Positions 1-18,734 of a DNA stretch of 64,000 nt are shown here, one piece after another. The DNA comes from a virus. Made by a program: the position numbers and the translations under genes. Location of the stretch: positions 1 to 64,000 of the IMG/VR virus record IMGVR_UViG_3300047445_000457; one strand, 5' to 3'. Position 1 is the first letter of the stretch, and each line of letters opens with the position of its first letter. Under the pieces are notes generated by a model that was not told the DNA's origin, searched no databases, and worked only from the letters and a program-made list of their open reading frames with translations.

Positions 1-3000
1 CAGGATCAGGGGACGGCCCGCTTCATCCGTTGCCTGGCTGTCACCGAACCAACGCCAGAACGCGCGGATCGCCTCATCCGTCGCCGCGATGGGGTTTCCC
101 TGGCTGTTCGTGATGTGCCGCTGCACGCCGTCGACGTCGATCATGCCAGGCTCAGAGGTCCGCGAGTGGTGCGCCTTAGCCTGGTAGTTGCTGATCGCCT
201 TCATGCGCGCGAAGTCGGCGCGGTCGCCGCCCATCGCGTCAATGACCTCGCCGGACGCCAGCAGCGCCGCATCCAGCCAGGACGGCGCGGTGCCCGATTC
301 CGGCCCCATGCCGAACAGCGAGCGCTTGACCCAATCCTTGAAGCGCTCCCACAGGGTTTGCCCCTCGTAGCGCTTGCCGGCCATGTAGTTTTGCAGCAGC
401 GGATCGGACAGCGTGCGGACGAAGAACTCGTCGGGGTTCCCGCGCGCCTCCTCTACAGCCAAGGCGAGATCGCGGTTTGCGAACTTTTCGCCCGCCGTCA
501 TCGAACGGAACTCTTCCCACACCGACGAGAACTGTTCCAGTGCTTTCGCTGCGGCCGGTGCCGACAGGCCCAGCATCTTGTCGTTGCCGCGCACCACGCC
601 CACCGAGAGCGAGCGGTAACGCGCAGCCACCACGACGTGCATCGTTTCGTGGAGCACGACTTCGTAGGTCAGGCCGCCGCGTCCCTCGGCCGTGAACAAT
701 TGCATGTGCAGCACCGGGGCCAGGCTCACCACGCCATGCACGTTCATGCGGCGGGTGTCGTCCACGGTCAGCATCAGCGAGCCGGTGGTCGGCAGCAGCT
801 TTTCCACCTGCGCGGCCAGTGCGCGCACCTCCTTCGGGCCGGTCAGGGCGATCAGCTTCATCGCCTGGCGCAGCGCCTTGATACCGTTCAGGCTGGTGGT
901 GCCGCTCTCCTGGCCATCGCGCAGCACCTTTTCGATACCTGGCGCGACGCGCTGCGACAGTACGTTCTGGTCGATCGGGCGGGCCTTGCCGATGGCGACC
1001 TCCCCGGCCTTCGCATTCGACGCGAGCGCGGCGGCAGCGGCGGCAGCAAGGAACTGGCGGCGGCTGACGTTGCGCTGTGCAGCGGAATCGCTCTCCAGCA
1101 TCGAAACCGCCGGCGCGTCGTCCAGGACCTGCGTGCCGTGGAAGGCGCGTTGCGCCATGACGTCCGGGCCTGACACTCCATCATTGTCATTCGCAGCCGG
1201 TGGCGGCGCCACAGCCGGCTGCGCCCCCGCCGGCGCCTGCACCTGCGGCGGCTCGAAATCCTTTTCCTCGTACACCGGGATGCCCTGCGAATCCTCGGCC
1301 TGCATGTACGGGATCACCACCTCACCGCGCTCGTCGGTGCCGAGCACGAACCACCCATCGTTGCTCCAGCGGTGGCCGGTCACGACGAACTCCTTGCCCT
1401 GCCAGTACACAGTGGTGTCGATCGGCGCGCCGGTGCGCAGCCAGTACGGCGGCGCCACCGGGTTCATGGTGATGTCGCGCTCCAGGTCGTCCAGTTGCTT
1501 CTGCGCGGCGGCCAGCTTGTCGCCCAGGTGGAAAGGCTCGCGCATCACGGTTTCGTTGTGGCCGAGGGCGCGCTCGTCGTCCTCGACTTCCTGTTCCCTG
1601 CGGCGCACCTGCTCGTCGCGCACCCAGCGCAGTTGCGCTTCCAGGCTCGGCAGGCTTGGGCCGTTGCTTTCCACCGTTTCGTTGCCGATGACCACGTACA
1701 GGTCCGGCTTGTCGGACCAGTTGCCCCAGCGAGCGTGCAGCGGCAGCCCGCCATACTGGCCGATCTCGACGTCCTGACCCTTGCGCAGCGTCGCCGCCAG
1801 CTTTTGCGCGATATGGTCGGAGGCCTCGCTGCGCTTGTCGAAGTGCTGGCCCTGCACCGTCATGCGGAAGGTGTCGCCGCGTTGGAGGTCGAGCACGGCC
1901 GCCGCCTGCTTTGCCGTCTCCCGCAGGTCCGGCAGCTCCCGGCGGTCACGCTCGATCTTCTGGCGCAGGCGCCTGGCCATGCTGGTGGCATCGGCCTGCG
2001 CCTGGGTGTGCAGGCGTTCGCGACTCTGCAACTGCTCCAGTTTCTTTTTCAGCTTCTCGCGCACCAGCACGCGCGGGTCGCCTGCGGCGTCGGCAAACGT
2101 CGATACCAGGTCGCTTTGCTCGTCGGAGGCGGCATCGCCCTCGATCACGCGCACCTCGCCCTTCGATTTCATGAACTCGGTAATGAAACGCTGCTTGATC
2201 GACAGCACCTGCCAGCGGCGGCCGTCCAGGCGGTCGGTCAGGTAGCGGTATTCCAGCACCGTGTTCCACTGGTTGCCCTGGCGGTGGCCGCGCCCGTTGC
2301 GCTGTTCCAGTTCGCCCGGCATCCACGGCGCGTCCATGTGGTGCATGGCGCGCAGGTTGCGCTGCATGTTCACGCCCACGCCCAGCGAGTCGGTCGAGCC
2401 GAACACGATGCGGATCTTCCCGCTGTTCATCGCGTCCGCGATTTCCTTGCGCTTGTCCTTGCTGGTCGAGCCGGTCACGGTGGCGATCTGCTCGCGCGGG
2501 ATCCCGGCCTGCACCAGACGCTCCACCATGTCCAGCATGGTCGAGAAAGCCGGATAGCTGACGGGCCGCTTCATGCCCTTGGGTCCCTCGGAGCGCGTCA
2601 CGGTCTTGGACATACCCTGTTCCATGAACACGACCTGATTGGCGTTGGGCGACCCGCGGTAGATGTCGATCAGGTTCTTCACCACGCGCGCCGGCTTGGA
2701 TGCCGGGTGCGGCTCCATTTCCGGCGTGCCTTCCAAGCCGGCATTGTTGATGGCGTCGACCAGGCGCACATCGAACGACGCTTTCTCGGCAATCGCGTCG
2801 TGGATGATCGGCACTTCCGGCGCACCGTCGCTCATCGCCTCCTTGCGCGCCTTCTTCGTCATCGCGCGCCAGGATCGTGCCAGCGCCTGCACTTGCTGGA
2901 ACACCCGCACCTGCTCGGGCGACATATCGGACGAGGTGTTCACCACCTTTTTATAGGGGCGGTCCTGCGCGTTCTCGGTGCGGCCGTCCAGCAGCTCGGC

Positions 3001-6000
3001 GCGCTCGGCGTCGGTCAGCGTCTTGTCGGCCATGGTCTTGCCATTTACGGCGCGCGGGCGCATTTCCGGCATGTCGTCGGCAAACACCACGTCCATGTAC
3101 TGGCCGATCATGCGGCGCAGTTCCGGTACATTGATGAAGGCCTGCAGGCGCGTCACGGCCTCGTATTCGCCGGTCGAGGACAGTTCGACGTCGTTCACCT
3201 CGCGGGCGAAGGAGCCGAACCAGCCGTCCCAATCCGCCAGCGCGGCGTCCGCCATTTCCTCCTGCATCATGTAGCGCATCATGTGGAACACCTCGGTCAT
3301 GGTGTTCGTGATGGGCGTACCCGTGAACAGGTGGACGTTGCCGCCGCTGTTCATGCCGCGCACATACTTGGTGAGGAAGGACATGGCGATGGATCGGTTC
3401 GAGGTCTGCGTCTGCAGCCCCTTCATCTTCATCTTGGTGGCGATCGGAGGCTTCTTGAATTCGTGCGCCTCGTCAACAAGAACCATGTCCACGCCCATGT
3501 CCTCAAAGGCCACGGAATCCTCGCGGCTGGCCTGCTGCGACAGCTTGCGGATCGTCTCCAGGATGCGCATGCGCTGCTTGACCAGTTCCTTGGCCGTGGG
3601 CGAGCGCAGTTTCTTCAGCGCGTCCTCGTCGTCCCACATATCCTCATTGATCGTGACGCCATCCTCGGCCGCCGCTTCCTTCGCAACGGTTTCCAGGTCG
3701 TTGATGTCGTCCTGGGCCATCGCCAGCAAGGTTTCTTCCTTGAAGCCGATGCGGTCGATCAGCGAGTGCGGGATCACGATCAGGTCCCAATCGTCATTGG
3801 CGATTTGCGCCATGCGGACCTTGATGTTGTCCTTCGACAGGTTATCGACGTACAGGATTTTCGCGGCTGGGTACATCATCTGGATTTCGCTGGCCACCGA
3901 CTTGCTGTTGGCGTTGTGCGCGAACATCAGCGGCTTCTTGGCGATGCCGTAGCGGCGCGACTCCACCGCGATCCCGCCCATGGTGAAGGTCTTGCCGGTG
4001 CCGACTTCGTGCGCGTTCAGGCTTTTTCTCGTCACCAGCGCGCGCCAGATCGCGTTGACCTGGTGCTCGCGCAGGTTGAACGGGCCGCGCCCGAGCGACA
4101 GGGCCATGCCCTGGAAGCCGAGGAAGGAGCCATCGAAATGCGGCGTAGCGAAGGAATTGCGCACCTCGTTGTATTCGCGCTCCAGCTCGACGCGGCGCAC
4201 CGGGTCGGCCCACAGCCATTCCCCGAATTTCAGGCGCATGTCCGCGATCTTGGCGTTGGTTTCCTTGGTCGCCGTGTCATCGACGTATGTGCCGCCAGTG
4301 ATCGGGTCCTCTTTCTTGATGGTGATGTTCTGGTTGGCGATCGCCGCGCGCACCAGGCGCTTGAACGTGACATGGCCGATGCCGAAGCCGCTGGAGGCCT
4401 CGGCGCGGTGGTTGAACGAGGCCGGGAAGCTGACCCTCCAGCGGCCAGCCTGGAAGTTCACGTCGATCTCGTCCGTGTTCTCCAGGCCCAGCATGTGCGC
4501 CACGTAGTCGGCATACACCGGCGCCGGCACCCAGGTGGCGCCCATCTGCGTCTCGATCTTGTAGTACGGAATATCGACGGGCAGCACCTTCTGCAGGGCG
4601 TCGATGTTGCGCTGCATTGCGGCGTTACCCTCTTCCAGCCCGGCCTTCGCCTGGCGCAGCTTTTCGCGCACGTTGCCCGACAAATACATATCGGAGGGGA
4701 TGAAGTCGCCCGCCGGCGTCTCGAAAGCGGCGCCGGCCTCGATCAGCTCGCGCCGCACGGTGGCCTCGTCCACCCCGGCCAGTTCCGCGATCTGCGCCGG
4801 CGACGGGTTCACCGAATCGTTACGGGCGAGCACGAAGGCATCTGCGACGCTCGGATTGGCCATCTTCCGGCTGCCGCGGATCGTGCTCTCGCTCAGGATC
4901 GCGGCCGGGCGGTAGGTGCGGGTGCCATCGCCGTTATCGACGTTCATTTCCAGCGCCGCCAGCGCCGGATAGAACGGGTCATCGATCTTGCGCAGGTAAT
5001 CCAGGCCGAACGATTCCGAGAAATGCCCGAAGTTCAGCTTGAACGCCTCGAACACATCGCGCAGGGCGGTGCGCTCGGCGCGGGCGTCGCCCTTGCGCTC
5101 GGCGTCGATCAGCGTGCCGTACAGGCGGCGCATGTCGATCAGGGCACCCAGCTGTGCCTCGCGGCGCGCGGTCGTCTTCGGGTCCTTCACGGCGTACTTG
5201 ACGACCTCGCCCGCCGGGGCCAGGTACTCACCCTGCACGATGAACAGGCCATCGTCGGTTTTCGTCAGCGCGCCGGTGCGGTCGCCCGTGTGGTTGGCCA
5301 CGTAGCTGATCTGCTTGCCGCGCGTGTCGGCCTCGTAGGCGTTCTCGGGCACCAGGTCCACGATGCGGCGCAGGTGCTCCAGCATGTTGTCGGGCCGGTT
5401 CACGACCATCGCACCGCTGGCGTACAACGAGCGGCCCTTGCCGAAGTCGATGGTGCCGATCACATGGTCCGGGTTGTTGTGGAAATACTCGTTGACGTTG
5501 ACTTCGGTGCCCTCTGGCGTGGCGTGCGGCTTGGACGTGATCCAGCCCTTGTCGGCCACGATGCCGGCCGGCTCCGCGCGCTTGCGCAGGATGATGATGT
5601 CGGTCACGACTTCCGTGCCGGCATATTCCTTGAACGCGCCGGACGGCAGGCGGAATGCGGCCAGCAGCTCGCCCTTGCGTGCCATTTCGGCGCGGATGGC
5701 GAGGTCTTTCTTGTCCATCGTGAACGCAGTGGTAATGCCCACCACCAAGCCACCGGGGCGGGTCTGATCCAGCGCCTTCAGGAAGAAATAGTCGTGCAGG
5801 GACGGCGACAGGCGGTTGTAGCGGCGGTCGGCCGGCGACACGTTCGCAAACGGCCAGTTGCCAATCACCAGGTCATAGAAGTTGTCGGGCGTCTTGGAGT
5901 GCTCGAAGCCCTTGATCTGGATGTTCGCCTGTGGATACAGCAACTGCGCCATGCTGCCCGTCACCTGGTCGAGCTCGATGCCGGCGCGCTGGCTGCGGCT

Positions 6001-9000
6001 GGCCAGGTCCGGCGGCATCATGCCGTAGAAGTTGCCGATGCCGATGGACGGCTCCAGCACGCGCCCGCCCGTGAAGCCCATGCGCTTGACCATATCCCAC
6101 ATGGCCAGCACGGTCGGCGGGTCGGTGTAGTGGGCGTTGATGATGGAGCGCTGCATGCCCTCCCACTCGGCCTGGCCGAGGTTGTTGCGCAGCCAGGCGT
6201 CGCGGTCCTCCCAGCCCTCCTTCGGCGCCGGACGCTGCCACGACCCCTGGAACAGGTCTTGGCCGAACGAACCCCAGCCGGTATAGCCGGCCAGCACTTC
6301 CTGTTCCTCGCGGGTCGGCGCGCGGCCGGCGTCGAGCAACTGGTTGCGCATCTCGAGCGCGGCGCGGTTCTTGTCGAAGCGGACCTTCTGGCCGCCGCCG
6401 ACGATTTTCAAGGGGTCGGCAATATGGAAGTCACCCGGCCCGGTGTCCGCCGGGCTGACGCTCGCCGGGTTCTTTACGACAGGGGCGGCAGCGCGCGATC
6501 CTCCACGTCCTGCTCCGGTTCCAGCATCAGGATTTCGCGCTCCGCCATTTCGCGGGCGTCCGTCACCGGCATCCCCGCTTGCAGCAGTTCCTTCTGACGG
6601 GTCCACATGCGCTGCTGGAGCACGTACGCCAGTTGCTTCGTTATTTGCAGGCGTTGCAGGTCCGCCCACAGCTTCGGGCTGTCGCGCTCCCAGGTCGCCA
6701 GGATGTGCCGGTCCAGTTCCCGGTTGTGCAGCGTCTCGTCGTTGTGGCGCAGCCGCAGGTACTCCTGCAGGATCTCCTTGCGCCATTCCTTGCTGGCTGT
6801 GTTCATCGGTCGTGGTTCCCTTGGGTTTCTGTGCGTTATCGGGCGATGCTGCACTATTTTGAGCGTTCACGCCAGCGGCCTGCGCAACGGCAGCCCGTGC
6901 GCGGTCGGCCAGCTCGGATGCCGGCAGGTTCACCGGCATCCAGCGGTTCTCGCCGCCGCTGAAACGCTGGCCCTCTTTCGTCACGCGCATCACGACACTG
7001 ACGCCGGATTTGGTGGACTTGAGGAAGCCCAGCGATTCGCCGCCAACAGTAATATAGATGCCGTGCTTCATGCCTGGGTGGAACATGGTCAGCATGGCAT
7101 CGCCGGAACCGGCTGGGCCGCCTTCGTTGACGCTGACGATCTTCGTCGGCTTGCCGTTGTGGTCCGTGTGCGGCACGAAGCCCTCGACGTCCAGCGCCTT
7201 GCCCACTGCTTTCAGGTAGGTGCTGGCGTCCTTGAGGAAAGCGTCCTTCATGCCCCCGCGCAGGCCGAAATCGGTCTGTTCGTTCTTGCCGCCGGGGATA
7301 GGCGTGTAGCCGTCGATGTACTCGACGCCCCAATCGTCGCGCAGGACCGGATCGGTGCCGGACTTTGCTGGGCGCGGTGCGGTCGGCTGCGTCGGCTTTT
7401 CGTCCTTCGCGGCCGCCACTTGCGCAGTCTTCGCGGCAGCATCCTCGGTCGCCATCGCGGTCATCTTGTCCTTGGCCCAGGCGATCGCATCTTCCAGCGG
7501 CATCAGGCCGGTTTGCCCGAGTCCGCGCCCTTCGGCGCGCCACTGGTCGCCTTCGCGGGTCAGGATGACATTGGCATACTCGTAGTCGGGCAGCCTTACC
7601 TTGATGCTGCCGTCCTTCTCGTACATCACCGCCAGGCCGGCGTCCTCGGCCAGCAGCCGTTGCCTGGACAGCGAGTTGACAATCACCTTCATGCCGGAAG
7701 GTGCGATATGCACGCTGGTTTCGCTGGCATCGCTTGCGGCTTTCGGCTCTGCCGCCTCTACCGCCGGCATTTTCATCCCGCGCCGCTGCATTTCCTTGGC
7801 GATCGGATCCGCGCGCTTCGGCAGTTCCTTATGCGCACGCAGCAGTTGCCCGTCCGTCATGGCCTTGACGGACAGATTGTTGAGTTCCTGGGTAGTCAGC
7901 TCGGCGCCGGTTTCCGCCGCCTTGACGACCCCTTGCCCCAGCGTGATCTGGCGGCTGGCGTCAATACCGGGATAGTCGCGGGTGTCGATCCCGAGTGCCT
8001 GGCTGGCGCGGTCTTCCGATGCTTCGCGCTTTTTCGGGTCGGCGTTCTTGTGCTCACGCGCCTGCTGGTAGCGGCGTGCGGCGAGCGAATCGAGCACCTG
8101 GGCGATCTCGACCAGTGCGCGCTTCGCTTCCTGAACCGCTTTCGGGTAGCGTGAGTCGATCTGGTCCTCGTACCTGAACCCGAGTTGCGCCAGCGTCGGG
8201 GCCAGTTCGTTCCAGCGCTGCACCGCCGCGTCAATGATCGGCTGCGGCAGCACAGGGGCCACGTTGGTGATCCGCGGCATGTCGGCAGCCGTGATCGGCA
8301 CAAAATCGACCGGCACGGCCGGCTTGCCCTCGCTCGCTCGCATGGCGATCGCCTGGCGCGCTTTGTCCTCGCGGAACGCCACGCCGGCCTCGTTCAGCCG
8401 GCCCTGGCCGGCGTCCATGTGTACGCCGGCCTCGATCACCCTGGCCATGTCGTCGTCGCCCGCGTCGCGCAGGTCACGCAGCATCTTCTCGATGCGTGGC
8501 GCGAACGGCGTCGACTGCCAGGCGCGCGCCGACGCTGCGGGTGCGGCCTCCGGCTCGTCTGCCGTCTCGCCCTTCTCTGCGGCCACCAGCTCGCGCAGCG
8601 CGTCATTCGCTGCGTCATCGTCCATATCACCGTAGTAAGAATCCTCCACGGCGCTGTTGATGTCGCCTTCGGTCACGCCGGCCGCCACCGCCTGTTCGAT
8701 CAGCTTGCGGTCGAGGCGGTCGTACTTGTTGGCGATCGCCATGGCCGGGTGATCGGCGGCGTTGTTGGCCATGAAGAAACCATAGCTGAAGCCTTCCGGC
8801 GTGACGGAACGGGCGTTCTTCGTCGCCTGGCTCTTGCCGCCGTACAGGCGGTGCATCTTGCTGCCCTCGGTCGGCTCGACCGGCGCCACCGGCAGGTCGC
8901 CGTTGAAGCGGCCCCAGATCAGGGTTTTCTTGGTGTACGGGTCGCCCAGGTGGTTCGGGTCGAACGACAGGCGCCACGGCGGCAGGCCACCCAGCTTCTC

Positions 9001-12000
9001 GATGCGGCCTACAGGGTTTTCCAGCGCCCAGACGGACGGCTTGAAGTATTCGATGGTGCGCAGGGTCTGGTGAACCAGGTTCACGCTGGCCACCGTGCGG
9101 CCGTCCGCGTCCTTGGCGGCGAAGTGGCGCGCGCCGGATACGGCGAAGTCAGTGCAGGGGCAGGCGGCCAGGATCGCGTACACGTCCATGCCGTCAAAGG
9201 AGCCGAACCAGTCGTTGAAGAACTCGGTCGAGAAGTTGTTGACGTCGCCCATTTCCGGGTCGTCCTGGATGTCGAAGCGGAATACCTGGTAGCCCGCTTC
9301 CTCCCACGGCTTCGACCACTCGCCCGACAGGTCGAACAGCGACAGCACGACCTTCTGGCTGTTGGCGCGGCGCGTGGCGTCATCTTCATACTGAGCCAGC
9401 GCGTGTTCTTTCCACTGCTCGATTTTTGCCTTGGCCTCGGCCGGGGTCATCCAGCCATGCCCGGCATGGTAGACCTTTGCCTTGTCGGCCAGGCGGACGA
9501 TCTCGCCATTCTTTGGCGGCTGGAAGATGTTGGTAACGACGTGCTCGCCGTCCATCATTTCCGCTTGGGCGGCGTTGAACTCGTCCACGATCTCGCCCAG
9601 CTCGCGGTCATCCACCCCTTGCAGGTGTTCCGGCGCAGTCGCGTTCGGGTGTGCTTCCGGCTTCTCGGACGGCTCGGCCAGTGGCTTCCATTCGGTAAAA
9701 CGATAGGTCGCCAGGCGCTCGGCGTTCTTGAGCGCTTCCAGCTTGTCCCAGCCGCCGGACGGCCCGGCACCGCCCTTGGTGTGGATGGTCTTGTCGCCGT
9801 CCTCCATCGACTTGACGACCCAGCCCTTGTCCGTCTTTTCGATCCACACCGTGCTGCCCGGTGCCCCGGCGTAGTCGAAGTGGGCGCGGTAGCCGGCATC
9901 GACGTCGCCAATGAATTCGTCCAGCGTGGTTGGCTCGCGCACTTCCAGCGGCTCGACCGTCTCCGCGGCGCGCGCACGCTTCTCCAGCGGACTCAGCGGC
10001 TCCACCGGATCCCGGCGCTGGTCGTCGCGCACCACGCGCGGCTGTGGCGAACCGTCTGCCATGTCCGACTGGATGATGTGCTTCATCGCCTGCGGGCGCG
10101 GGCGATCAGGCGTGATCAGCGCGCGCAGGCGGTTGGCGTCCGCCGATACGTTGCCGTCATAGTCGGCCGCCATCAAGGCGTCCAGGCGCGGCTGCAGGCG
10201 GGAGTCCGACACCGCGCCCAGGATATGCACGGCATGGATGTTGTCGCCGTACTTCCGCATCAGGTCCGTGAGCTCGTCATTCGACACCGCCTCGGCCTGC
10301 GACGGGATGCCGATGATCGGAGAAATGTCGCGCGCCGGGTCCATGCCCAGGTTGTGCATCATCTGCTCGTAAGCCTCGGTCAGCGACAGCTCACCACCTT
10401 GCAGCGGGATGATCGCCTGCAGGCCGTAGCCATTGATCGTCTCCGCATAGCGGGCGACCAGATCCAGCGAACCAGCCTGATCCCCCACGATGTCCGGCAT
10501 GACGAAGAAGGCGCGACCGTTCGCCATCCCGCCGCTGGCCTTGCTGATCGCGTGCGACAGGTCCTCGTAGCGCTGCATCAGTGCGTCGTGGTCCAGCTTT
10601 GCCGCCTCGGCCATTTCGCGCTGCTCGCGCTCCGCCACGCCCTGCTCCCGCACGTTGCGCATGAAGATCGAGAACGCGCCCGAATCAACGAACAGGTAGG
10701 CACCCGGCGCCGCTGCCAGCTGCTCGGCAATGCGCGGAACGGACACCTTCGACAGTTCCAGCATGGAAATGCCGACGTTCTTGCCGTTGCCGAACAGCTT
10801 GCTGTAGTCGCCCGGCGCACTCATGCCAGAGACGAACTTCAACGGTTGCTCCGGGGTGCCGTACACGCCCGGTTTGAACTGGCCGTTGGTGTCGACCGGG
10901 TTGCCGGCGTTGGCGTAGGTCTCCGCCAGCACACGGGCGCGCTCGCGCTCGTCCACGGCGGGCGGTTCCGGCGTCACCAGTTCGGAGGCCACCATGTCCG
11001 GCCCGCGCACGCGCGCATCTTCCTCAACCAGCCGGTTGTAGCGGTCCTGATCCATCAGCACGACCTGCTCGGACAACATATCGGGGTTCCGAGTCATGCG
11101 GATCTTGTTCTTCCCGATGTCGATGCCATTGAGGCGGTAGAGCGTGCCATCTTCCGCGTGCAGGACGTCGCCAGTCGCGGCGGATTTCAGGCTGACTTTT
11201 GCAGGCGCATGCTTCGCCTTCGCCTCGCGGTACTGTTGCAAGGTGCGCTCGGCATCCGCAATCTTGTCGTCGTACACCCATGCGTTGGCGGTCGCCTTGG
11301 CCTGCTCTTGCAGCCGCTTCAATTCCGCGACCTTCGCCTCGCCTGCGGCGATGAGTTCGTCCAGTTTAGCGAGCGCGTCGGCGCTCGGTGCCGCCGGCGC
11401 GGCCACCAGGCGCAGCACCTGGTCGTCCGGCATCGCCGCCACCACTTCCTCGCTGTCGGTGCCTTCGTGGTCCTCGGCAATCGCGTTGTAGGCCGCTTTC
11501 CAGCGGCGCGCGCTGATCTGGTCCACATGCGGGGCCACAGCCGGGTTGCCGCGCATCGCCTTGGCCGAAGCGCCGACCGCGGCGGCGAACGTGCGGAATC
11601 CCTTGCGGACCAGCAGCTCGATCACCTTCGACAGCGCCGGCAGCAAATCGCCTGTGCCGTGCTGCTTGCCGGTCATGTTCAGCTTGGAACCGAACACGTC
11701 GCCCAGCACATCGCCCAAGTGCCCCAGCGCAGCCTGCAGCTCGGCGTCCAGCAGGTCGATGGCGGGTTCGTCCGGCTTATCCGGCGCCTGCTCGGCCGCT
11801 ACTTCTGCCACGGTCGGCGGCGTCTCGCGCTTGCCGTCGATGAAGTCGTTGACCGCCTCGCTTTCCGAGCGCGGAATCGACGGATTGGGGGCGGGCTTCG
11901 TCCCGTCCTTGGTCGGGTTCAGCGCATGGCGGATTTTCGCCAGCGCTCCCTTCTTGATGTCGAAGCGGTCGAGGGCGGCGAGCAAGGACTGGCGCAGCAG

Positions 12001-15000
12001 GTCCGCCGGCACGCGGGCGTTCTCGGCCCACTGCGCGACCGCCTGCGGCAGTTCCTTTGCGTCGAAGTCGGGCTCTCTCGTCTCTTCGGCCACCTGTCCG
12101 GCCATTTCGAGGCCGAGCGCCTCGGCCCGGTCTTCGATCAACTGCTCGGGAGTCTTGCCCTCGTTGCGCCAGGCTTCCGAGTTGCGCGAGGGTCGCGCCG
12201 GTTGCGCTTCGGCCGGCGACTCGGTTTTCGCCGTTGCCCCCTCCGCCGCCTCGGCGCTCGGGAACTCCGGCACCACCTTCAGCAGCTCGCGGATCGGCGC
12301 ATCGAAGCGGATCACGCGCACCGGCTCGTCCTGCTCGTACTTGGCCAGCCACTGGTGATGGCCGTCGAGCACGTAGTCGTCGCTCGATACCAGGATCGCG
12401 CGGTCGCCGCCCTGGAAGTCCTTGGCCCGCTCGACCTTGGCGATGGAAAACTCGCGCTGGGTCGGCTTGAGCGTGTCCGGCTCCACGATGTCCTGTTCGT
12501 GCGCGATCCCGCGCCCCAGCAGGAATTGCGTCAGTGCGCCGCGGTGCTCCGCCTTGATCTGCGGCATGTCGGCGCGTGGGATGCCCAGCGTGCCGGTCTC
12601 AGGCGCGAATGCGGTCCATTCCTTGTCGATCCGGTGGCCGGCGAGGTCGTTCACCGGCTCGGCCGCCTGGCGGCGCTTTGACGGCCCGGTGTAGTCGCGC
12701 ACCTGGGCCGGCACGGTGGTATCGCCCAACTGGTTGAGCAGGAACGCGCGGTGGTGGCCGTCCTGCAAGTGCAGCGAGCCGTCCGGCAGTTCCTGGGCCT
12801 GGATCGGATGGGCGGCGGTGAAGGCGCGCAGGCGTGCTTGTGCCGCCGGGTCCGCCTTGATGGCGTCGACCAGTTCGCGCATCCCGGTGCCGGCCGGCAG
12901 ATTCAGGCCCGCCGCGTGTTCGAGCACGTCGCGGACCTGGCTTTCAGTCACGCCCTGCGTGCCGATCGCGCCGTTCGGGCGGCGGATCTCGGACAAAGCC
13001 AGGTCGATGGTGTCGGCCGGGTGCGGTGCGGTTTCGTGCGCCGCGTTCAGTGCAGCCTGTCCGGCCTCGGCATCCACTGCAGCCACAGCGCCCGCAGTAC
13101 CGGGTTCGCCAGCGGCGACAGCGGCGCCGGGTTGCGCATCCTGCGCTCCAGCGGCGTGTCCGTGCCCACCTTCATCAGTTGCCGATACTGCATGATCTGC
13201 CCCCTCGGTAGCGCCGGGAACAGGCGCGACGGCTTTCCGCCCACCTTTTACGAATGCCTTGAACGCCTCCATCAGCGGCTTGCGCTGCCCGACCGGCACA
13301 CCAGCCTTGTTCAGCGCCTTCCAGAACTCGGTGCCGTCCTTCGCCTGCTGCGCCAGCGGCAGCAGTTCCGGCGGCAGCGCCGGCGCGGCGGCGGGCTGGC
13401 CCTTGGCCACGGGCGCGGCGGCGGGCTTGCGCTCGGGCACGGCGTCCACCAGCTCGTTCGGGGCGGCGTATTCAGCCTCGGGCACGGCAAAGGCGTGGGC
13501 CAGCGCGCTGTGCCGCTCGATGTGCCCGATTTCCTCCGGGGTCGGCGCCAGGTTCCGATACCCCTCGCGGCGCAGGCGGGCCGTGAACGCCGCCAGCTTC
13601 CTTTGCGGCGGGGCTTCGCCCAGCTCGTTCAGCACATGGTCGAGCAGGTCCATGCGCGCGTTGCGCGACTGCATCGCCTGGTGCGCCTCGACGCGGCCGT
13701 GGATGGCGTCGAGCTCAGCCTGGCGTTTCAGGTGTTGCATGCGCAGGTAGGCCTGCTGTTCGGCAGCGGCGGCTTGCTCCCGCTCGGCGGCGATGCGGGC
13801 GTCGTCCTCATGGATGCGGCGTTCCTCGGACGCCTCGATGGCAGGCTCCAGCAGGCGCAGCGCATCCTGTGGCGCGGCCTTGCGCGGCGCGAGCGCGGCT
13901 TTTTCCCTCTGCAACTGCTTGTATTCCGCTTCCTCGTCGGCGGTGTAGCGGCGCGCCGGGGCGTCCGGCCCGCCGCGCCCGATCGCGCGCAACTGCTCAA
14001 GGCGGGCGTCGATCTGGGCGATGCGTCCCTCCGCGGTCGGCGTTTCCGGCGGCGGGTCCTGCGCGGTCGCAGCGGCGTCAGTGGCCGCACCGGCAGGCGC
14101 AGCGCCGGCATCCGGCGCTGCCTGGTCGCCCGGCAGCGGCGTCGGCGGGGTCTTGTCGAAGCCGTTTGTGGCATCCACCTGGCGGCGCACCTCGGCTTGC
14201 TTTGCCGCACGCACGGCGGACGGGTCTTCGCTGCCGAATGCCGCCTCGGCATCGTCGCGGCGCTGCAGGCGCGCGGCGTCGGCCACGTTCGGGTCGAGTC
14301 CCGGCGACAGCGGCGGGGCAGCAGTCGCCGCCTGGCTGGTGGCGGCTGCGTGGTGCGCGCGTTCGAGCGGCCCGGCATCCGGCGACAGCGGCGGCGGCGC
14401 GGCAGGAGCGGCCGGCGCCGTAGCGGCGGGCTGGGTCGCCGGCTGATGCGTCGCCGCCGGCTGGTGATTACCATGGAACCCAGCCATGACCCCGCCCTGC
14501 ACGCCGCCCACCACCATCCCGCTGCCGGCGGCGTTGCCGACCCCCTTCATGCGGTCCGGCTCGCCCTCGGCCACGTTGGTGAAATACTGTTCCTGGGCCG
14601 ACTGCGGCGCTTCCTCCGCCACGCCTTCGCTGAAGGCTTCCTTGCCGATCTTGGCCAGCCGGCTGCCCTTCAAGGTATGCGCGCCGGTCGCCAGGTCGGT
14701 AGCGGCATCACCGAACACGCGGCCCGCTCCCAGCCCGATCCCGGCCGTGAGTGCGCCGGCGGTGAGCGCCGGCAGCGCGTAATCCGTGTAATCGCGCCCT
14801 TTACCTTGCGCCTGGTCCGCGATCTGGCCGGCGCTCTGCGCGCCCTCCATGCCCGAGCCGGTGGCCAGCAGGCGCGTCGAATTGGCCTCGACCGCGGCGT
14901 CAGCGGCGGCCTTGCCCGCCTTGGTCTTGAGCGCCGCCGCCGCCGCCTCGGCGCTGGACTTGCCGGCGTCGGTTGCGAGCTGCGCCGCCAGCTTGCCCTC

Positions 15001-15495
15001 GGTGGTGGCCAGCGCCGCCCTGACGCCGATGCGGGCGGCGAGCGCGTTGGTCACGCCCATGCCGGCCAACATCCCCGGCGCCGATTCGGCAATCCCGCCC
15101 AGGATCGCGCGCGGGTTCTCCAGCGAGGCAATGGTGCTGTCAACGAAGCCATCGGCCTGCTGGACTTTCGCATCCGCCGCCTTCTGGCTGTCGCTCAGGT
15201 ACTCGCCCAGCGTTGCATTGGTGGCCTCGGGGTCGTAGCCGATCGCGCGCATACCCTTCCCCACCAGCCCGCCAGTCGCCAGGCTACCGAGGCCGACCAC
15301 GGATTGCCCGAGGTCGACCGCGCCCTGCGCCAGCTTGATGCCGACGTCGCCCGCCGTCCGCAGGAAGCCCGCCTGTTCCGGCTCCTTGGCTTGCGCCTCC
15401 CCCATCTGGGAGTCGAGCCATGCCTGGCCGGCATCGAAATCGAGCGTGCTGCGGTTATCGGTCAGGTAGGGGGCTTGCGGTTTCTTGGTGGCCAT
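1..15495 (-). CDS. Giant polyvalent protein, 3' end beyond the window
   Basis: Uninterrupted frame of 5165 codons from an ATG preceded by AAGGACCAAC; no stop before the edge. Visible parts: Ala/Gly-rich hydrophobic N-terminus (about 100-330) typical of phage internal virion proteins; Pro/Ala linker; two ParB-like modules (DGHHR near 911, LDGHHQ near 1043); a TGT/DpdA-like domain (DSGAF at 1604, IPLQGG near 1700, HILG near 1755); a C5-methylase-like domain (CPC 2112-2114, ENP 2159-2161); a low-complexity linker (about 2900-3005); an adenine methylase (LEPSIGIGNF from 3147, NWPF 3213-3216); an SNF2-type helicase (GTGK 3832-3835, DEAH 4008-4011, QRNGRGHR 4398); a Tat-like motif (SRRQFLA 4811); a zincin HETMH (4949-4953); and FWRWFGDS (5146), the usual opening of PolyVal ADP-ribosyltransferases. 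Known: such proteins are thought to be injected with phage DNA and counter host defence. It follows the ejection genes, which fits a virion role (inference). Confidence 0.9.
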   Translation of the reverse strand, partial: MATKKPQAPYLTDNRSTLDFDAGQAWLDSQMGEAQAKEPEQAGFLRTAGDVGIKLAQGAVDLGQSVVGLGSLATGGLVGKGMRAIGYDPEATNATLGEYLSDSQKAADAKVQQADGFVDSTIASLENPRAILGGIAESAPGMLAGMGVTNALAARIGVRAALATTEGKLAAQLATDAGKSSAEAAAAALKTKAGKAAADAAVEANSTRLLATGSGMEGAQSAGQIADQAQGKGRDYTDYALPALTAGALTAGIGLGAGRVFGDAATDLATGAHTLKGSRLAKIGKEAFSEGVAEEAPQSAQEQYFTNVAEGEPDRMKGVGNAAGSGMVVGGVQGGVMAGFHGNHQPAATHQPATQPAATAPAAPAAPPPLSPDAGPLERAHHAAATSQAATAAPPLSPGLDPNVADAARLQRRDDAEAAFGSEDPSAVRAAKQAEVRRQVDATNGFDKTPPTPLPGDQAAPDAGAAPAGAATDAAATAQDPPPETPTAEGRIAQIDARLEQLRAIGRGGPDAPARRYTADEEAEYKQLQREKAALAPRKAAPQDALRLLEPAIEASEERRIHEDDARIAAEREQAAAAEQQAYLRMQHLKRQAELDAIHGRVEAHQAMQSRNARMDLLDHVLNELGEAPPQRKLAAFTARLRREGYRNLAPTPEEIGHIERHSALAHAFAVPEAEYAAPNELVDAVPERKPAAAPVAKGQPAAAPALPPELLPLAQQAKDGTEFWKALNKAGVPVGQRKPLMEAFKAFVKGGRKAVAPVPGATEGADHAVSATDEGGHGHAAGAQDAQPGAAVAAGEPGTAGAVAAVDAEAGQAALNAAHETAPHPADTIDLALSEIRRPNGAIGTQGVTESQVRDVLEHAAGLNLPAGTGMRELVDAIKADPAAQARLRAFTAAHPIQAQELPDGSLHLQDGHHRAFLLNQLGDTTVPAQVRDYTGPSKRRQAAEPVNDLAGHRIDKEWTAFAPETGTLGIPRADMPQIKAEHRGALTQFLLGRGIAHEQDIVEPDTLKPTQREFSIAKVERAKDFQGGDRAILVSSDDYVLDGHHQWLAKYEQDEPVRVIRFDAPIRELLKVVPEFPSAEAAEGATAKTESPAEAQPARPSRNSEAWRNEGKTPEQLIEDRAEALGLEMAGQVAEETREPDFDAKELPQAVAQWAENARVPADLLRQSLLAALDRFDIKKGALAKIRHALNPTKDGTKPAPNPSIPRSESEAVNDFIDGKRETPPTVAEVAAEQAPDKPDEPAIDLLDAELQAALGHLGDVLGDVFGSKLNMTGKQHGTGDLLPALSKVIELLVRKGFRTFAAAVGASAKAMRGNPAVAPHVDQISARRWKAAYNAIAEDHEGTDSEEVVAAMPDDQVLRLVAAPAAPSADALAKLDELIAAGEAKVAELKRLQEQAKATANAWVYDDKIADAERTLQQYREAKAKHAPAKVSLKSAATGDVLHAEDGTLYRLNGIDIGKNKIRMTRNPDMLSEQVVLMDQDRYNRLVEEDARVRGPDMVASELVTPEPPAVDERERARVLAETYANAGNPVDTNGQFKPGVYGTPEQPLKFVSGMSAPGDYSKLFGNGKNVGISMLELSKVSVPRIAEQLAAAPGAYLFVDSGAFSIFMRNVREQGVAEREQREMAEAAKLDHDALMQRYEDLSHAISKASGGMANGRAFFVMPDIVGDQAGSLDLVARYAETINGYGLQAIIPLQGGELSLTEAYEQMMHNLGMDPARDISPIIGIPSQAEAVSNDELTDLMRKYGDNIHAVHILGAVSDSRLQPRLDALMAADYDGNVSADANRLRALITPDRPRPQAMKHIIQSDMADGSPQPRVVRDDQRRDPVEPLSPLEKRARAAETVEPLEVREPTTLDEFIGDVDAGYRAHFDYAGAPGSTVWIEKTDKGWVVKSMEDGDKTIHTKGGAGPSGGWDKLEALKNAERLATYRFTEWKPLAEPSEKPEAHPNATAPEHLQGVDDRELGEIVDEFNAAQAEMMDGEHVVTNIFQPPKNGEIVRLADKAKVYHAGHGWMTPAEAKAKIEQWKEHALAQYEDDATRRANSQKVVLSLFDLSGEWSKPWEEAGYQVFRFDIQDDPEMGDVNNFSTEFFNDWFGSFDGMDVYAILAACPCTDFAVSGARHFAAKDADGRTVASVNLVHQTLRTIEYFKPSVWALENPVGRIEKLGGLPPWRLSFDPNHLGDPYTKKTLIWGRFNGDLPVAPVEPTEGSKMHRLYGGKSQATKNARSVTPEGFSYGFFMANNAADHPAMAIANKYDRLDRKLIEQAVAAGVTEGDINSAVEDSYYGDMDDDAANDALRELVAAEKGETADEPEAAPAASARAWQSTPFAPRIEKMLRDLRDAGDDDMARVIEAGVHMDAGQGRLNEAGVAFREDKARQAIAMRASEGKPAVPVDFVPITAADMPRITNVAPVLPQPIIDAAVQRWNELAPTLAQLGFRYEDQIDSRYPKAVQEAKRALVEIAQVLDSLAARRYQQAREHKNADPKKREASEDRASQALGIDTRDYPGIDASRQITLGQGVVKAAETGAELTTQELNNLSVKAMTDGQLLRAHKELPKRADPIAKEMQRRGMKMPAVEAAEPKAASDASETSVHIAPSGMKVIVNSLSRQRLLAEDAGLAVMYEKDGSIKVRLPDYEYANVILTREGDQWRAEGRGLGQTGLMPLEDAIAWAKDKMTAMATEDAAAKTAQVAAAKDEKPTQPTAPRPAKSGTDPVLRDDWGVEYIDGYTPIPGGKNEQTDFGLRGGMKDAFLKDASTYLKAVGKALDVEGFVPHTDHNGKPTKIVSVNEGGPAGSGDAMLTMFHPGMKHGIYITVGGESLGFLKSTKSGVSVVMRVTKEGQRFSGGENRWMPVNLPASELADRARAAVAQAAGVNAQNSAASPDNAQKPKGTTTDEHSQQGMAQGDPAGVPAAAPQRRDAAQPGTGPAHPGDLGARQPEAVGGPATPANNEATGVRAPAAHVDPSEGTAASGDAGDGRPRNGGARNPDAGTGAGRGGSRAAAPVVKNPASVSPADTGPGDFHIADPLKIVGGGQKVRFDKNRAALEMRNQLLDAGRAPTREEQEVLAGYTGWGSFGQDLFQGSWQRPAPKEGWEDRDAWLRNNLGQAEWEGMQRSIINAHYTDPPTVLAMWDMVKRMGFTGGRVLEPSIGIGNFYGMMPPDLASRSQRAGIELDQVTGSMAQLLYPQANIQIKGFEHSKTPDNFYDLVIGNWPFANVSPADRRYNRLSPSLHDYFFLKALDQTRPGGLVVGITTAFTMDKKDLAIRAEMARKGELLAAFRLPSGAFKEYAGTEVVTDIIILRKRAEPAGIVADKGWITSKPHATPEGTEVNVNEYFHNNPDHVIGTIDFGKGRSLYASGAMVVNRPDNMLEHLRRIVDLVPENAYEADTRGKQISYVANHTGDRTGALTKTDDGLFIVQGEYLAPAGEVVKYAVKDPKTTARREAQLGALIDMRRLYGTLIDAERKGDARAERTALRDVFEAFKLNFGHFSESFGLDYLRKIDDPFYPALAALEMNVDNGDGTRTYRPAAILSESTIRGSRKMANPSVADAFVLARNDSVNPSPAQIAELAGVDEATVRRELIEAGAAFETPAGDFIPSDMYLSGNVREKLRQAKAGLEEGNAAMQRNIDALQKVLPVDIPYYKIETQMGATWVPAPVYADYVAHMLGLENTDEIDVNFQAGRWRVSFPASFNHRAEASSGFGIGHVTFKRLVRAAIANQNITIKKEDPITGGTYVDDTATKETNAKIADMRLKFGEWLWADPVRRVELEREYNEVRNSFATPHFDGSFLGFQGMALSLGRGPFNLREHQVNAIWRALVTRKSLNAHEVGTGKTFTMGGIAVESRRYGIAKKPLMFAHNANSKSVASEIQMMYPAAKILYVDNLSKDNIKVRMAQIANDDWDLIVIPHSLIDRIGFKEETLLAMAQDDINDLETVAKEAAAEDGVTINEDMWDDEDALKKLRSPTAKELVKQRMRILETIRKLSQQASREDSVAFEDMGVDMVLVDEAHEFKKPPIATKMKMKGLQTQTSNRSIAMSFLTKYVRGMNSGGNVHLFTGTPITNTMTEVFHMMRYMMQEEMADAALADWDGWFGSFAREVNDVELSSTGEYEAVTRLQAFINVPELRRMIGQYMDVVFADDMPEMRPRAVNGKTMADKTLTDAERAELLDGRTENAQDRPYKKVVNTSSDMSPEQVRVFQQVQALARSWRAMTKKARKEAMSDGAPEVPIIHDAIAEKASFDVRLVDAINNAGLEGTPEMEPHPASKPARVVKNLIDIYRGSPNANQVVFMEQGMSKTVTRSEGPKGMKRPVSYPAFSTMLDMVERLVQAGIPREQIATVTGSTSKDKRKEIADAMNSGKIRIVFGSTDSLGVGVNMQRNLRAMHHMDAPWMPGELEQRNGRGHRQGNQWNTVLEYRYLTDRLDGRRWQVLSIKQRFITEFMKSKGEVRVIEGDAASDEQSDLVSTFADAAGDPRVLVREKLKKKLEQLQSRERLHTQAQADATSMARRLRQKIERDRRELPDLRETAKQAAAVLDLQRGDTFRMTVQGQHFDKRSEASDHIAQKLAATLRKGQDVEIGQYGGLPLHARWGNWSDKPDLYVVIGNETVESNGPSLPSLEAQLRWVRDEQVRRREQEVEDDERALGHNETVMREPFHLGDKLAAAQKQLDDLERDITMNPVAPPYWLRTGAPIDTTVYWQGKEFVVTGHRWSNDGWFVLGTDERGEVVIPYMQAEDSQGIPVYEEKDFEPPQVQAPAGAQPAVAPPPAANDNDGVSGPDVMAQRAFHGTQVLDDAPAVSMLESDSAAQRNVSRRQFLAAAAAAALASNAKAGEVAIGKARPIDQNVLSQRVAPGIEKVLRDGQESGTTSLNGIKALRQAMKLIALTGPKEVRALAAQVEKLLPTTGSLMLTVDDTRRMNVHGVVSLAPVLHMQLFTAEGRGGLTYEVVLHETMHVVVAARYRSLSVGVVRGNDKMLGLSAPAAAKALEQFSSVWEEFRSMTAGEKFANRDLALAVEEARGNPDEFFVRTLSDPLLQNYMAGKRYEGQTLWERFKDWVKRSLFGMGPESGTAPSWLDAALLASGEVIDAMGGDRADFARMKAISNYQAKAHHSRTSEPGMIDVDGVQRHITNSQGNPIAATDEAIRAFWRWFGDSQATDEAGRPLIL
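6474..6806 (-). CDS. Nested gene in an alternate frame of the giant ORF; helical 110-aa protein
   Basis: Lies wholly inside the giant ORF in a different minus frame. ATG has AAGGGA 10 nt upstream; TAA stop. In this frame almost every third base is G or C, like real genes here, while in the giant frame the same stretch has A/T-rich third positions and encodes a low-complexity G/A/P/R linker. The protein has normal composition and looks all-helical (EWRKEILQEYLRLRH, then LWADLQRLQITKQLAYVLQQ), rich in W, L, R, E and Q. It loosely recalls small TnpV-type proteins of mobile elements, which I would not rely on. An upstream in-frame ATG at 6854 would add 16 residues but lacks a good ribosome site. 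Function unknown. Confidence 0.75.
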   Translation of the reverse strand: MNTASKEWRKEILQEYLRLRHNDETLHNRELDRHILATWERDSPKLWADLQRLQITKQLAYVLQQRMWTRQKELLQAGMPVTDAREMAEREILMLEPEQDVEDRALPPLS

Positions 15496-15513
15496 GTTGG
15501 TCCTTGTCGTGGG

Positions 15514-17754
15514 TCAGAGCGGCATGCTGGCGGACTCGCCAGCGTTGGCGGCTTGCTCTTTCGCCTTGGCGTACAGTCGTGCGGCGGCCTTGCGGATGGC
15601 CGGGTTCGGGTTGGTCTTGGCGATTTCCTGGTACTTGGCCGGACCGTCCAGCGGGCCGATCAGCTTTTCCTGTACCCAGGTTTCCAGGGCGGCGTCCGTC
15701 ATGCCGGTTGCGGCCGGCGCTGCAGCGCGCGGGGGCGTCTGTGCCGCATTCTTTTGCGGCGCAGGACCCGTGCCGCCTTTCCCCTGGTGCGGGGTGGATC
15801 TGGCCGCCACCGTCTTGTACGCCGCCTGCACCTTGGCGGCGTAGTCCGGGTCCTCGGCGTAGCCGCCCGTCTTCAACGCTGCGCCGAACCTGGCTGCGTC
15901 CGCACCTGCGCCGACTGCGCCGGGGTACTTGCGGCGGATCAGGTCAACATACTGGTCCGCGAACTCATCGGGGCTGGCGAAGGCGCGGTACTTGTCCACG
16001 CTGCCGGTCTGGTTGTCGGTCGCCTCGACGCCCTCGCCGGAGAAGTCCTTGATGTTGCCGAGGTTATTCGTGCCGGGGACGATGGATTGGCCCCAGCCGG
16101 TTTCCAGACCCCAATGCCCCAGCACTACGCTCGGGTCGACCCCGAGCGCTTCGCCAGCGCGCTTGGCGGCGGCACCGTAGCTGTTGGCATAGTCCGCTTG
16201 CTGCGCGTTCGGCTGGGCATCGCCCTGCTGCGGCGTGGCGCGGATCGCATGTTTCAGGTACTCGGCGCGCAGGCGGCGCAGCTCGGCCACCGGGTCCAGC
16301 ATCTTCGGGTCGTTGGCCGCTTTCGGGTCCTTGGCGGCTTTGGCGACGTTAGCGGTGGCCAGCGCCTTGAGCTGGTTGTTCACGCCCACCGCCACCCCGG
16401 CGCCGCTCATGGCGTCGCCGCCGTGCTGGCGGGCGTAGTCGATGCCGACCGTCTTGGCGAAGGTGAAGCCGTCGCCGTCGTAGACTTCGTTGCCGTCCTG
16501 GTCCTTGGCCTTGGTCGTGGCCACCAGGTAGGCGTCGGCCTCCTTGGTCCAGTTCGCGGCCTGCTCGGCGCTCTGGGCCTGCTTTACCTTGAGCGCCTCT
16601 TCCTGCAGGCGGCGCTGCTCGCGCATGTTCTTGGCCTGGTCCTCGCGGTAGCCGGCATTCGTGTCGGCGTTCTTCCTCGCCGCTTCCACCATGCCGGTCT
16701 TGTAGTCCGTTTCGCTCTTGCGCTGGGCCGCCTTATCCATCACCTCGAGGCGATCTTTCAGTGCCATCGTCTGGAACTGGTTGAGCGAGGTGTCGATGTC
16801 GGTGCGGCTGCCGTCATTGTTGGCAATTTGCAGCTTCCAGGTCGGCACTTCCATACCGTTCGGCAGCGTGGTCGTGGCCTGCTGGGGCGTGCCGACGATG
16901 CGCCCGCGATTCTCTCCGAGGCCGTTGTACAGGGCCATGCCGCCCGCGAAATCGCCATGCGCAAACGCCTCCATGGCCTGCGTCACGCCCTCGGTGCGCA
17001 TCTTGTTCAGCAGCTCGCGGGTCTGCACGTAGGCCTGCGGATTGACGTCGCCGCGCTTGGCAGCGGAGTTCAGCATGGTCTCGTACATGCCCAGCATGCT
17101 GCGCATGTCGCGCGGCTTGGGGATGCCGGCCGGCTGCTGCACCAGTGGGGCGACGTCGCCGGATGCGGGTGCGGTTGGTGCCACCTGTGCGATTGGTGCC
17201 GCCTGCGCAATCGGTGCTGCCGGTGCCGCCTGTGCAATCGGTGCTGCCGGTGCGGCTGGCGCAGCCGTCATGTCCGGTGCGATCGCGCGCTGCGGCGGCG
17301 GGCCTTCCAGTCCATCGACCAGCGGCGTCGCCAGCTTGCTTGCGGTTGCCATCGGGGCCGGGGTAATGTCCGCTGCCGGATCGGCCACCGGCAAGGTCTG
17401 CGGACCGCCATCATCCGGCGCAGTGCCGCCTGCCGCCGGGGCGGAGGGCATTGCCGGGGCGGGCGCCGCTGCGGCACTCGGCGCAGCCGGCGTGCCGGCG
17501 GTCGGTGCGGTGGCGCCGCTTGCGGGCGGATCCTGCCAGTAGTCGGCGGCGGTCTTCTTATTAGCGTCGCGCACGCGGTCGGCCTCGCTCCACTCGTAGC
17601 GCTGGCGCGAACGCAGTTCGTCCTGGTAGGCGCGGTCGGCCTTCTTCGCCTCATCCTCCACGCGGCGGCGCTCGGTGTCTTCCTGGCGGCGCTGCTCGTC
17701 GCGGTAAGCGTTGTAGCCGGCGGCGGCGCCGGTCAAGTTGATTCCAAAACCCAT
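15514..17754 (-). CDS. Internal virion protein with FlgJ-like peptidoglycan hydrolase domain
   Basis: 746 aa. Charged coiled-coil start (about 15-75), then a long Pro/Ala linker with repeated AAPIAQ units (about 150-200), a second helical charged region (330-400), and near the C-terminus (about 535-660) a glucosaminidase/lysozyme-like domain with GHWGLETGWGQS, a likely catalytic Glu in LETGWG, and the TNNLGNIK motif known from FlgJ and GH73 enzymes. Probably an ejected protein that opens the cell wall locally during DNA entry. It sits between two small virion-type genes and the giant gene, 18 bases upstream of the latter, so one late transcript is expected. The domain call is strong; the virion location is inferred from position and size. 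Confidence 0.8.
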   Translation of the reverse strand: MGFGINLTGAAAGYNAYRDEQRRQEDTERRRVEDEAKKADRAYQDELRSRQRYEWSEADRVRDANKKTAADYWQDPPASGATAPTAGTPAAPSAAAAPAPAMPSAPAAGGTAPDDGGPQTLPVADPAADITPAPMATASKLATPLVDGLEGPPPQRAIAPDMTAAPAAPAAPIAQAAPAAPIAQAAPIAQVAPTAPASGDVAPLVQQPAGIPKPRDMRSMLGMYETMLNSAAKRGDVNPQAYVQTRELLNKMRTEGVTQAMEAFAHGDFAGGMALYNGLGENRGRIVGTPQQATTTLPNGMEVPTWKLQIANNDGSRTDIDTSLNQFQTMALKDRLEVMDKAAQRKSETDYKTGMVEAARKNADTNAGYREDQAKNMREQRRLQEEALKVKQAQSAEQAANWTKEADAYLVATTKAKDQDGNEVYDGDGFTFAKTVGIDYARQHGGDAMSGAGVAVGVNNQLKALATANVAKAAKDPKAANDPKMLDPVAELRRLRAEYLKHAIRATPQQGDAQPNAQQADYANSYGAAAKRAGEALGVDPSVVLGHWGLETGWGQSIVPGTNNLGNIKDFSGEGVEATDNQTGSVDKYRAFASPDEFADQYVDLIRRKYPGAVGAGADAARFGAALKTGGYAEDPDYAAKVQAAYKTVAARSTPHQGKGGTGPAPQKNAAQTPPRAAAPAATGMTDAALETWVQEKLIGPLDGPAKYQEIAKTNPNPAIRKAAARLYAKAKEQAANAGESASMPL

Positions 17755-17763
17755 GTTGCGCTC

Positions 17764-18021
17764 CTACTCCCCGGCTGGGGTGGTTGGGACTTCGAGGCGG
17801 GGCGACACCATGAACCTCACGGACTCGATGCGGCCGATCTCCATGGTCAACAGGCGCGCGCCCCGGTAGGCATCGGCGCGGCGCTCAAAGCGCTCGCGGC
17901 TGCGGTCAAGCAGGTGTTGCCCCTGCGCCGACAGGCGATCCAGCGTGCCGCCCTTCAAGGCACGATTCGGCATGCACCACAGGCGCATGAAACCTGCGCT
18001 TCCCGGCATGGCGGGGTCCAT
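17764..18021 (-). CDS. Small hypothetical virion-region protein
   Basis: 85 aa, starts by a TGATG overlap with the preceding gene's stop, so translation is probably coupled. Arg-rich (LLDRSRERFERRADAYRGAR) without membrane segment or signal. Not recognised. Its place between two ejection-type proteins suggests a structural or chaperone role, which is inference only. Confidence 0.65.
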   Translation of the reverse strand: MDPAMPGSAGFMRLWCMPNRALKGGTLDRLSAQGQHLLDRSRERFERRADAYRGARLLTMEIGRIESVRFMVSPRLEVPTTPAGE

Positions 18022-18734
18022 CAGGTGCCGATGCTCTCGCCGCTCGGCAGCGTATAACCGTCATTGCCACCGCTATACATATTCGCGTCGGTCATGCCGT
18101 TGCCGGACGAGGACGTGAACTTGCTCCAGTCGACCTTCGACAGTCCGCCGATCGCCGCGCCGGCGAGCTGGCCGGCCGCCGCGCCCTGCGCATTGGCCTG
18201 CTGCTGCTGGCTGTTCGCCACCGCATTCGCGGTGCTGGCCGCGTTGGCGAAGCCGGTCGAGGCGTTGGCCACCAGCCCCTTGCCCATGCCGAGCATGTCG
18301 AGCTGGTGGGCGTAGGCGCTGTCCTTGACCTGTTTTCTCGCCGTGTTCTGCGCGGTCGCGCCCATCGCGGCGCCGGACAGGGCCAGGTTCGTTTGCGCCG
18401 CCTGCGCGGCAGCCGACGACGGATCGAAACCGACCTGGCGCGACAGACGATCCTGCGCCTTGCCGATCTCGCTCGAGACGTTGGCCTGCGCCTCCGCGGC
18501 GGCGGCATTGCGCGCCTCGGGGGTGTCGTAGTTCTTGGCGTCCATCACCATCTGCGTTTCGAGCGGCTGGTAGTTGGCCTTGTAGCTGTCCCACTGGTCC
18601 TGCGCGATCCGGCCCTGGTAGGCGTTGGCTTCAAGCGCCGCCTTCTGGGACTCGGCGGCGTTTTTCGACGCCTTGTTCGACGCGACCCCACCGACCACCG
18701 CCGAAGTAACTGCTGCTGCTGCTGCCCATGGCAT
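18021..18734 (-). CDS. Ala-rich internal virion (ejection) protein, T7 gp14-like in character
   Basis: 237 aa. The N-terminus (MPWAAAAAVTSAVVGGVASN) is a short hydrophobic Ala/Gly segment followed by a long Ala/Gln-rich helical region with MGATAQNTARKQV and a Gly/Ser tail. Small internal virion proteins of T7-like and Bcep22-like podoviruses have this layout: one membrane-seeking helix then coiled coil. No direct family motif can be named. It heads the ejection-protein run (this gene, an 85-aa protein, the hydrolase, the giant protein) just downstream of the cupin gene, 1 base apart. Confidence 0.6.
   Translation of the reverse strand: MPWAAAAAVTSAVVGGVASNKASKNAAESQKAALEANAYQGRIAQDQWDSYKANYQPLETQMVMDAKNYDTPEARNAAAAEAQANVSSEIGKAQDRLSRQVGFDPSSAAAQAAQTNLALSGAAMGATAQNTARKQVKDSAYAHQLDMLGMGKGLVANASTGFANAASTANAVANSQQQQANAQGAAAGQLAGAAIGGLSKVDWSKFTSSSGNGMTDANMYSGGNDGYTLPSGESIGT

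Follow-up and report, generated by a model that had tools for sequence, protein, structure and literature searches.

A giant DarB-like gene and the gene nested within it

The window, which is the whole 64,000-nucleotide stretch that we analyzed (positions 1 to 64,000 of virus record IMGVR_UViG_3300047445_000457), begins inside a giant gene on the minus strand (Table 1). Base 1 of the window is also base 1 of the contig, so the gene is cut there with its frame still open. The giant protein matches PHROG 10089 (DarB-like), Helicase_C and SNF2, and the methyltransferase-SNF2 helicase half that serves as the criterion for a DarB-like giant polyvalent protein is present. The gene is thus one of the DarB-like polyvalent genes (LPD36-methyltransferase-SNF2; PMC5512222), whose products are thought to travel with DNA in phages and conjugative elements (PMC5512222). 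In Bcep22-like phages the giant gene is part of the virion module, and the DarB-like product of phage JC1, gp69, was found in virions, which does not prove that it is full length (PMC9144972). No convincing start codon for a separate methyltransferase-helicase half was found near 6470-6350.

Table 1. Features of the giant gene and of nested gene X
Feature	Position	Strand	Description
Giant DarB-like polyvalent gene	1..15495	-	At least 5165 aa, truncated where the contig ends; ATG at 15495, open to the window edge
Methyltransferase-helicase half of giant protein	1..6413	-	Profile matches
Nested gene X	6474..6806	-	110 aa, +1 frame of the giant gene; all-helical, acidic, pI 5.6
Giant-frame linker over X	6475..6807	-	A/G/P/R/D-rich, low-complexity
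Ribosome-binding site of X	6807..6825	-	aagggaa ... ATG; Shine-Dalgarno duplex energy -5.3 kcal/mol
Upstream half of giant protein	6870..15495	-	DarB-like N-terminal region, with cytosine-methyltransferase-like and ParB-like stretches

Wholly within the giant coding frame lies a second open reading frame, X, with its own start and stop (ATG at 6806, TAA at 6476-6474). The initial annotation, made from the sequence alone, had proposed an overprinted gene here, and our analysis confirms it on the minus strand at exactly that position. What it had said of the composition of the two frames also holds. Third positions of the nested frame, described as almost all G/C, have a GC content of 0.87 within a normal coding pattern (0.71/0.35/0.87 at codon positions 1/2/3), the AAGGGA site appears as aagggaa 5' of the ATG, and the supposedly ordinary helical product has an AlphaFold model with six helices (pLDDT 83.9). 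The giant frame had been called a low-complexity linker with A/T-rich third positions; its third-position GC is ~0.85 throughout and 0.33-0.42 over 6855-6496. Order-promoting residues make up 7% of this linker compared with 26% of the window's whole giant protein. Over all loci, linkers average 10% and X-type proteins 27%.

Relatives of X and constraint on the two frames

Relatives of X, 84-37% identical to it, occupy the same place and frame. They come from 18 viral contig loci, from 7 bacterial genome contigs, which are partly the same elements as the viral loci, and from two Pseudomonas phages. Among the loci identified by searching with nested proteins only, 23 are of the window's type and 66 belong to a second (LASTA) type; in the LASTA-type profile scan the gene is nested in 66 of 66 further viral loci. 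These searches all began from the nested protein, and an open giant frame was no condition of discovery. The relative frame of the giant ORF is the same in every window-type locus, and the host ORF spans 11-16 kb where the contig allows. Weaker +1 matches to the window-group profile occur at the same place in the giant genes of seven named phages (Erwinia Stean, Klebsiella LASTA, Pseudomonas Itty13, Agrobacterium Atu_ph08, Vibrio VvAW1, Ochrobactrum POI1126 and Microcystis Mwe-JY07). Burkholderia phages JC1 and BcepIL02, phage Y7 and phage 8P also carry a +1 ORF there; judged by sequence, its relationship to X is either weak or undemonstrated. No nested gene is found at this place in L048, L050, Streptococcus phage L066 or the P1-like phage D6 (L067). 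X and its relatives are small and acidic (median 107 aa, median pI 5.1).

The nested arrangement recurs in more than a hundred phage and mobile-element sequences, and the long overlap persists in phages of Pseudomonadota and of cyanobacteria as well as in Bacillota elements. Standard annotation misses X: gene callers take the region as one ORF, and X is absent from the phage annotations examined. Out-of-frame embedded phage genes (PMC6139136), polyvalent proteins (PMC5512222) and TnpV (PMC3158075) are each already known. We found no earlier report of the overlap between X and the giant gene in the open-licence literature, and the main text of the polyvalent-protein survey mentions neither TnpV nor overlapping genes (PMC5512222).

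Two loci depart from the pattern. L077 carries a giant-frame stop within tnpV. In phage PBC5, the reading frame is shifted by one base shortly before the nested start, so that the upstream half reads on into X and the downstream half forms a CDS of its own (L057 1842-2512; L148); whether this is a sequencing error or a real split is not resolved. A break between the halves of the giant gene, which the initial annotation had suggested looking for in other phages, is thus seen in this one old record. Neither outcome that it had named as refuting the nested gene was met, since relatives keep the nested frame and no frameshift error at the spot explains it. A frameshift or sequencing error behind X is ruled out by independent genomes in which stops flank X.

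Between close pairs, substitutions at nested codon positions 1/2/3 number 120/92/197 (p 4e-10). Nested third positions are giant first positions, and it is there that most substitutions over X fall; in the flanks of X they fall at giant third positions. Identity is higher for the nested than for the giant protein in 12 of 12 pairs compared. We then asked how many giant-frame stops the nested genes should contain, resampling their synonymous codons; the 119 nested genes fall into 68 clusters at 70%. Over these 68 non-redundant genes the expectation is 135 stops, the lowest of 500 simulations gave 101, and just one is seen, that of L077. The third frame matches its expectation under the same test (446 versus 436). 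L077 and PBC5, absent from an earlier version of the test, are both part of the pooled one. Two stand-alone tnpV genes contain 14 and 4 stops in the corresponding frame. Third positions of the AT-richer nested genes are G-rich and T-poor (T 6-15%) compared with three stand-alone tnpV genes (T 17-38%). Because of this T-poverty and the single stop where 135 are expected, we conclude that the giant frame is kept open, and apparently it is selected only for that. Selection had been supposed to act on the nested frame; the nested frame is indeed the better conserved, but the giant frame is selected as well. Both frames look translated, with the nested sequence conserved and the linker kept merely open and disordered, which would make the locus a clean natural case of two overlapping frames under unequal constraint. 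Conservation and the stop test together rule out X as a chance open frame in GC-rich DNA.

Initiation signals accompany the nested starts. ATG is the start codon in 116 of 120 nested genes, and the mean Shine-Dalgarno energy is -7.2 at nested starts versus -3.3 at other ATGs of the nested frame (p 2e-18). Several loci have a stop in the same frame 1-5 codons 5' of the nested ATG. The strong Shine-Dalgarno sites and these stops point to independent initiation and not frameshifting, although there are no translation data and expression is inferred. If X were instead reached by programmed +1 frameshifting out of the upstream half, an upstream half-X protein would be made beside the full giant protein. 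The single frame shared by the upstream half and X in PBC5 would suit such a mechanism, but it rests on one old record with a one-base shift, and the in-frame stops just before the ATG make it very unlikely that X extends the giant protein by frameshifting; with strong ribosome sites at the ATGs as well, we regard this mechanism as highly improbable. It could also be that the giant ORF is two genes with X between them, the linker being open by chance and untranslated. The GC-rich window has many long frames that are open by chance (one antisense frame reaches 1741 aa), the linker looks meaningless, and the DarB gene of D6 starts directly at the methyltransferase half. The near absence of giant-frame stops beside a third frame that behaves as expected argues otherwise, as does the open giant frame in genomes of only 38-53% GC; the window offers no convincing start for the downstream gene, and the virion-borne JC1 product, its full length unproven, also speaks for one gene. 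We find the two-gene account highly improbable. Almost certainly, then, the region is dual-coding and X is a real gene for a protein, embedded out of frame in the giant gene, its expression not having been shown. It would be translated from its own start on the mRNA of the giant gene: ribosomes in the giant frame would traverse the region as a disordered linker, and those starting at the internal Shine-Dalgarno site and ATG would make X. The production of both proteins, like the ancestry of X, is inferred.

Kinship with TnpV, origin and possible function

The window protein has no Pfam or PHROG match, does not reach the gathering score of TnpV (PF14198; no match at E 1) and has no direct profile match to TnpV. 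A connection emerges through intermediates. In profile comparison the window and LASTA groups connect at E 3.7e-9, and the LASTA group scores 27.9 against TnpV (shuffled maximum 18.3). TnpV is matched at E 0.1 or better by 32 of 41 LASTA-type members, any other family by two at most. We did not rely on the A2-A6 profile comparison, in which one sequence is common to both sides. TnpV matches nested ORFs of a human-gut element (1.2e-24) and a 32% GC element (2e-7), and some phage versions weakly; a single TnpV query against viral contigs found nothing. On these sequence comparisons, we describe X of the window as TnpV-like and do not file it as a member of the family. Models of the window and LASTA proteins are confident over most of their length and agree in helix layout. 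Neither has a significant match to a known fold (PDB, VIA-align), DNA-binding folds included. In a viral structure library the top match of both is Q8W6J4_2, significant just for the LASTA model, which we take by inference, the name being unchecked, to be the second half of PBC5 orf33.

In Bacillota elements the link to TnpV is strong. Nested genes there reach the gathering score (86.9 bits in L065; L070, L074 and L080 are also over the cut-off), and tnpV lies in the +1 frame of a giant ORF in gut contigs L065 and L070-L073 and in a Monoglobus plasmid (L074, L080). We assign the gut contigs to Bacillota from TnpV content and base composition, without a record. The surrounding ORFs are methyltransferase/helicase giant genes; in the gut contigs the methyltransferase part is matched 3' of tnpV, and the domain 5' of tnpV resembles ArdC-N by eye, not by profile. 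In the AT-richer elements this ArdC-N-like domain and the downstream domains share one frame across tnpV. Stand-alone tnpV genes occur in the Monoglobus plasmid too (L078) and in other elements, including elements without a recognised giant gene within ~8 kb.

Two single loci may be recorded here. The public plasmid record at L074 annotates the nested tnpV (7983-8336; WP_320690717.1) and no gene for the surrounding 6.6 kb giant ORF. At L046 (4478-4933), among the 32% GC elements, a divergent TnpV-like ORF lies +1 within a giant ORF, ~1 kb before the methyltransferase part.

X may descend from the small TnpV-like proteins of mobile elements or have a common ancestor with them, with the +1-frame linker between the upstream domains and the methyltransferase-helicase half running over X. 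The best reading is that the arrangement is old and that a mobile-element gene was overprinted by the linker of the giant gene. The initial annotation had left a choice between a gene captured between two later fused genes and a linker arising over an existing gene. The existence of TnpV-family relatives as genes on their own inclines us to the latter, but capture followed by fusion is not separated from it, nor is a beginning within the giant gene followed by escape. Birth of X de novo within the giant gene, with later escape as a stand-alone tnpV, would fit the phage copies found, all of which are nested, and the family has no root that would contradict it. Yet of the two overlapping products it is X that is structured and conserved, and the linker that is disordered, and transposons carry stand-alone TnpV genes with no giant gene nearby (PMC3158075); we consider this origin unlikely without dismissing it.

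What X does can only be guessed. Because it is small, acidic and tied to a giant protein that is reported in the virions of a relative and thought to travel with DNA, we place first, tentatively, a role alongside that protein, as a chaperone or as a factor delivered with it that helps in packaging, delivery or establishment. More doubtful still is the broader proposal that, in phages and conjugative elements alike, polyvalent proteins of the methyltransferase-helicase kind have an ancient and widespread out-of-frame partner in a small TnpV-like protein, which stays nested because it has to be produced along with the giant protein, whose packaging or delivery into the recipient cell it serves. 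An obligate partnership is spoken against because TnpV stands alone in elements without a giant gene. X could also be an excisionase-like DNA-binding or regulatory protein whose place in the giant gene is incidental; for TnpV of Tn4451, a part in excision has been postulated on the strength of homology to lambda Xis (PMC3158075). The late, virion-module setting in Bcep22-like phages (PMC9144972) suits an excisionase poorly, the failure of the models to match DNA-binding folds bears on the same point without deciding it, and we think such a function improbable. A role beside the giant protein would give the unexplained TnpV family a testable function and the giant antirestriction proteins a possible helper.

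Known systems offer partial parallels. Like the embedded lambda spanin genes Rz/Rz1, X is a complete phage gene in the +1 frame of another, with its own start and often unannotated (PMC6139136). Spanin partners, however, are both lysis proteins from short genes, whereas X is a structured protein over the disordered linker of a gene of four to five thousand residues, in an arrangement that also occurs in elements of Bacillota. TnpV of Tn4451-like transposons is likewise a small mobile-element protein, to which the LASTA-type match is weak and that of the Bacillota nested genes strong, but it is described as a stand-alone gene of Gram-positive transposons, and the window protein lacks its N-terminal part. 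VirE1 is a secretion chaperone, likewise small and acidic, for VirE2, which accompanies DNA during its transfer (PMC5389803). The analogy is only a possible one, and no homology to X is claimed. To our knowledge, VirE1 is not known as a nested gene.

Other features of the giant gene

A second, shallower dip in the third-position GC of the giant frame lies at ~13250-13050. Here a second possible nested gene of 48 aa (13193..13047, minus strand) occupies the +1 frame of the giant gene, with a G-rich ribosome site upstream. Its start and stop are kept in L009 and L010, with identities of 81% and 67%, and the pattern of substitutions is not decisive. Deep within the giant protein, at ~1092-1010 on the minus strand, is a stretch resembling a twin-arginine signal, SRRQFLAAAAAAALASNAKA (Pfam TAT_signal E 0.006, below the cut-off). 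Very long open frames run opposite the giant gene on the plus strand (1372-6597, 8185-12681 and 12751-18057), and are best explained by the GC-rich composition.
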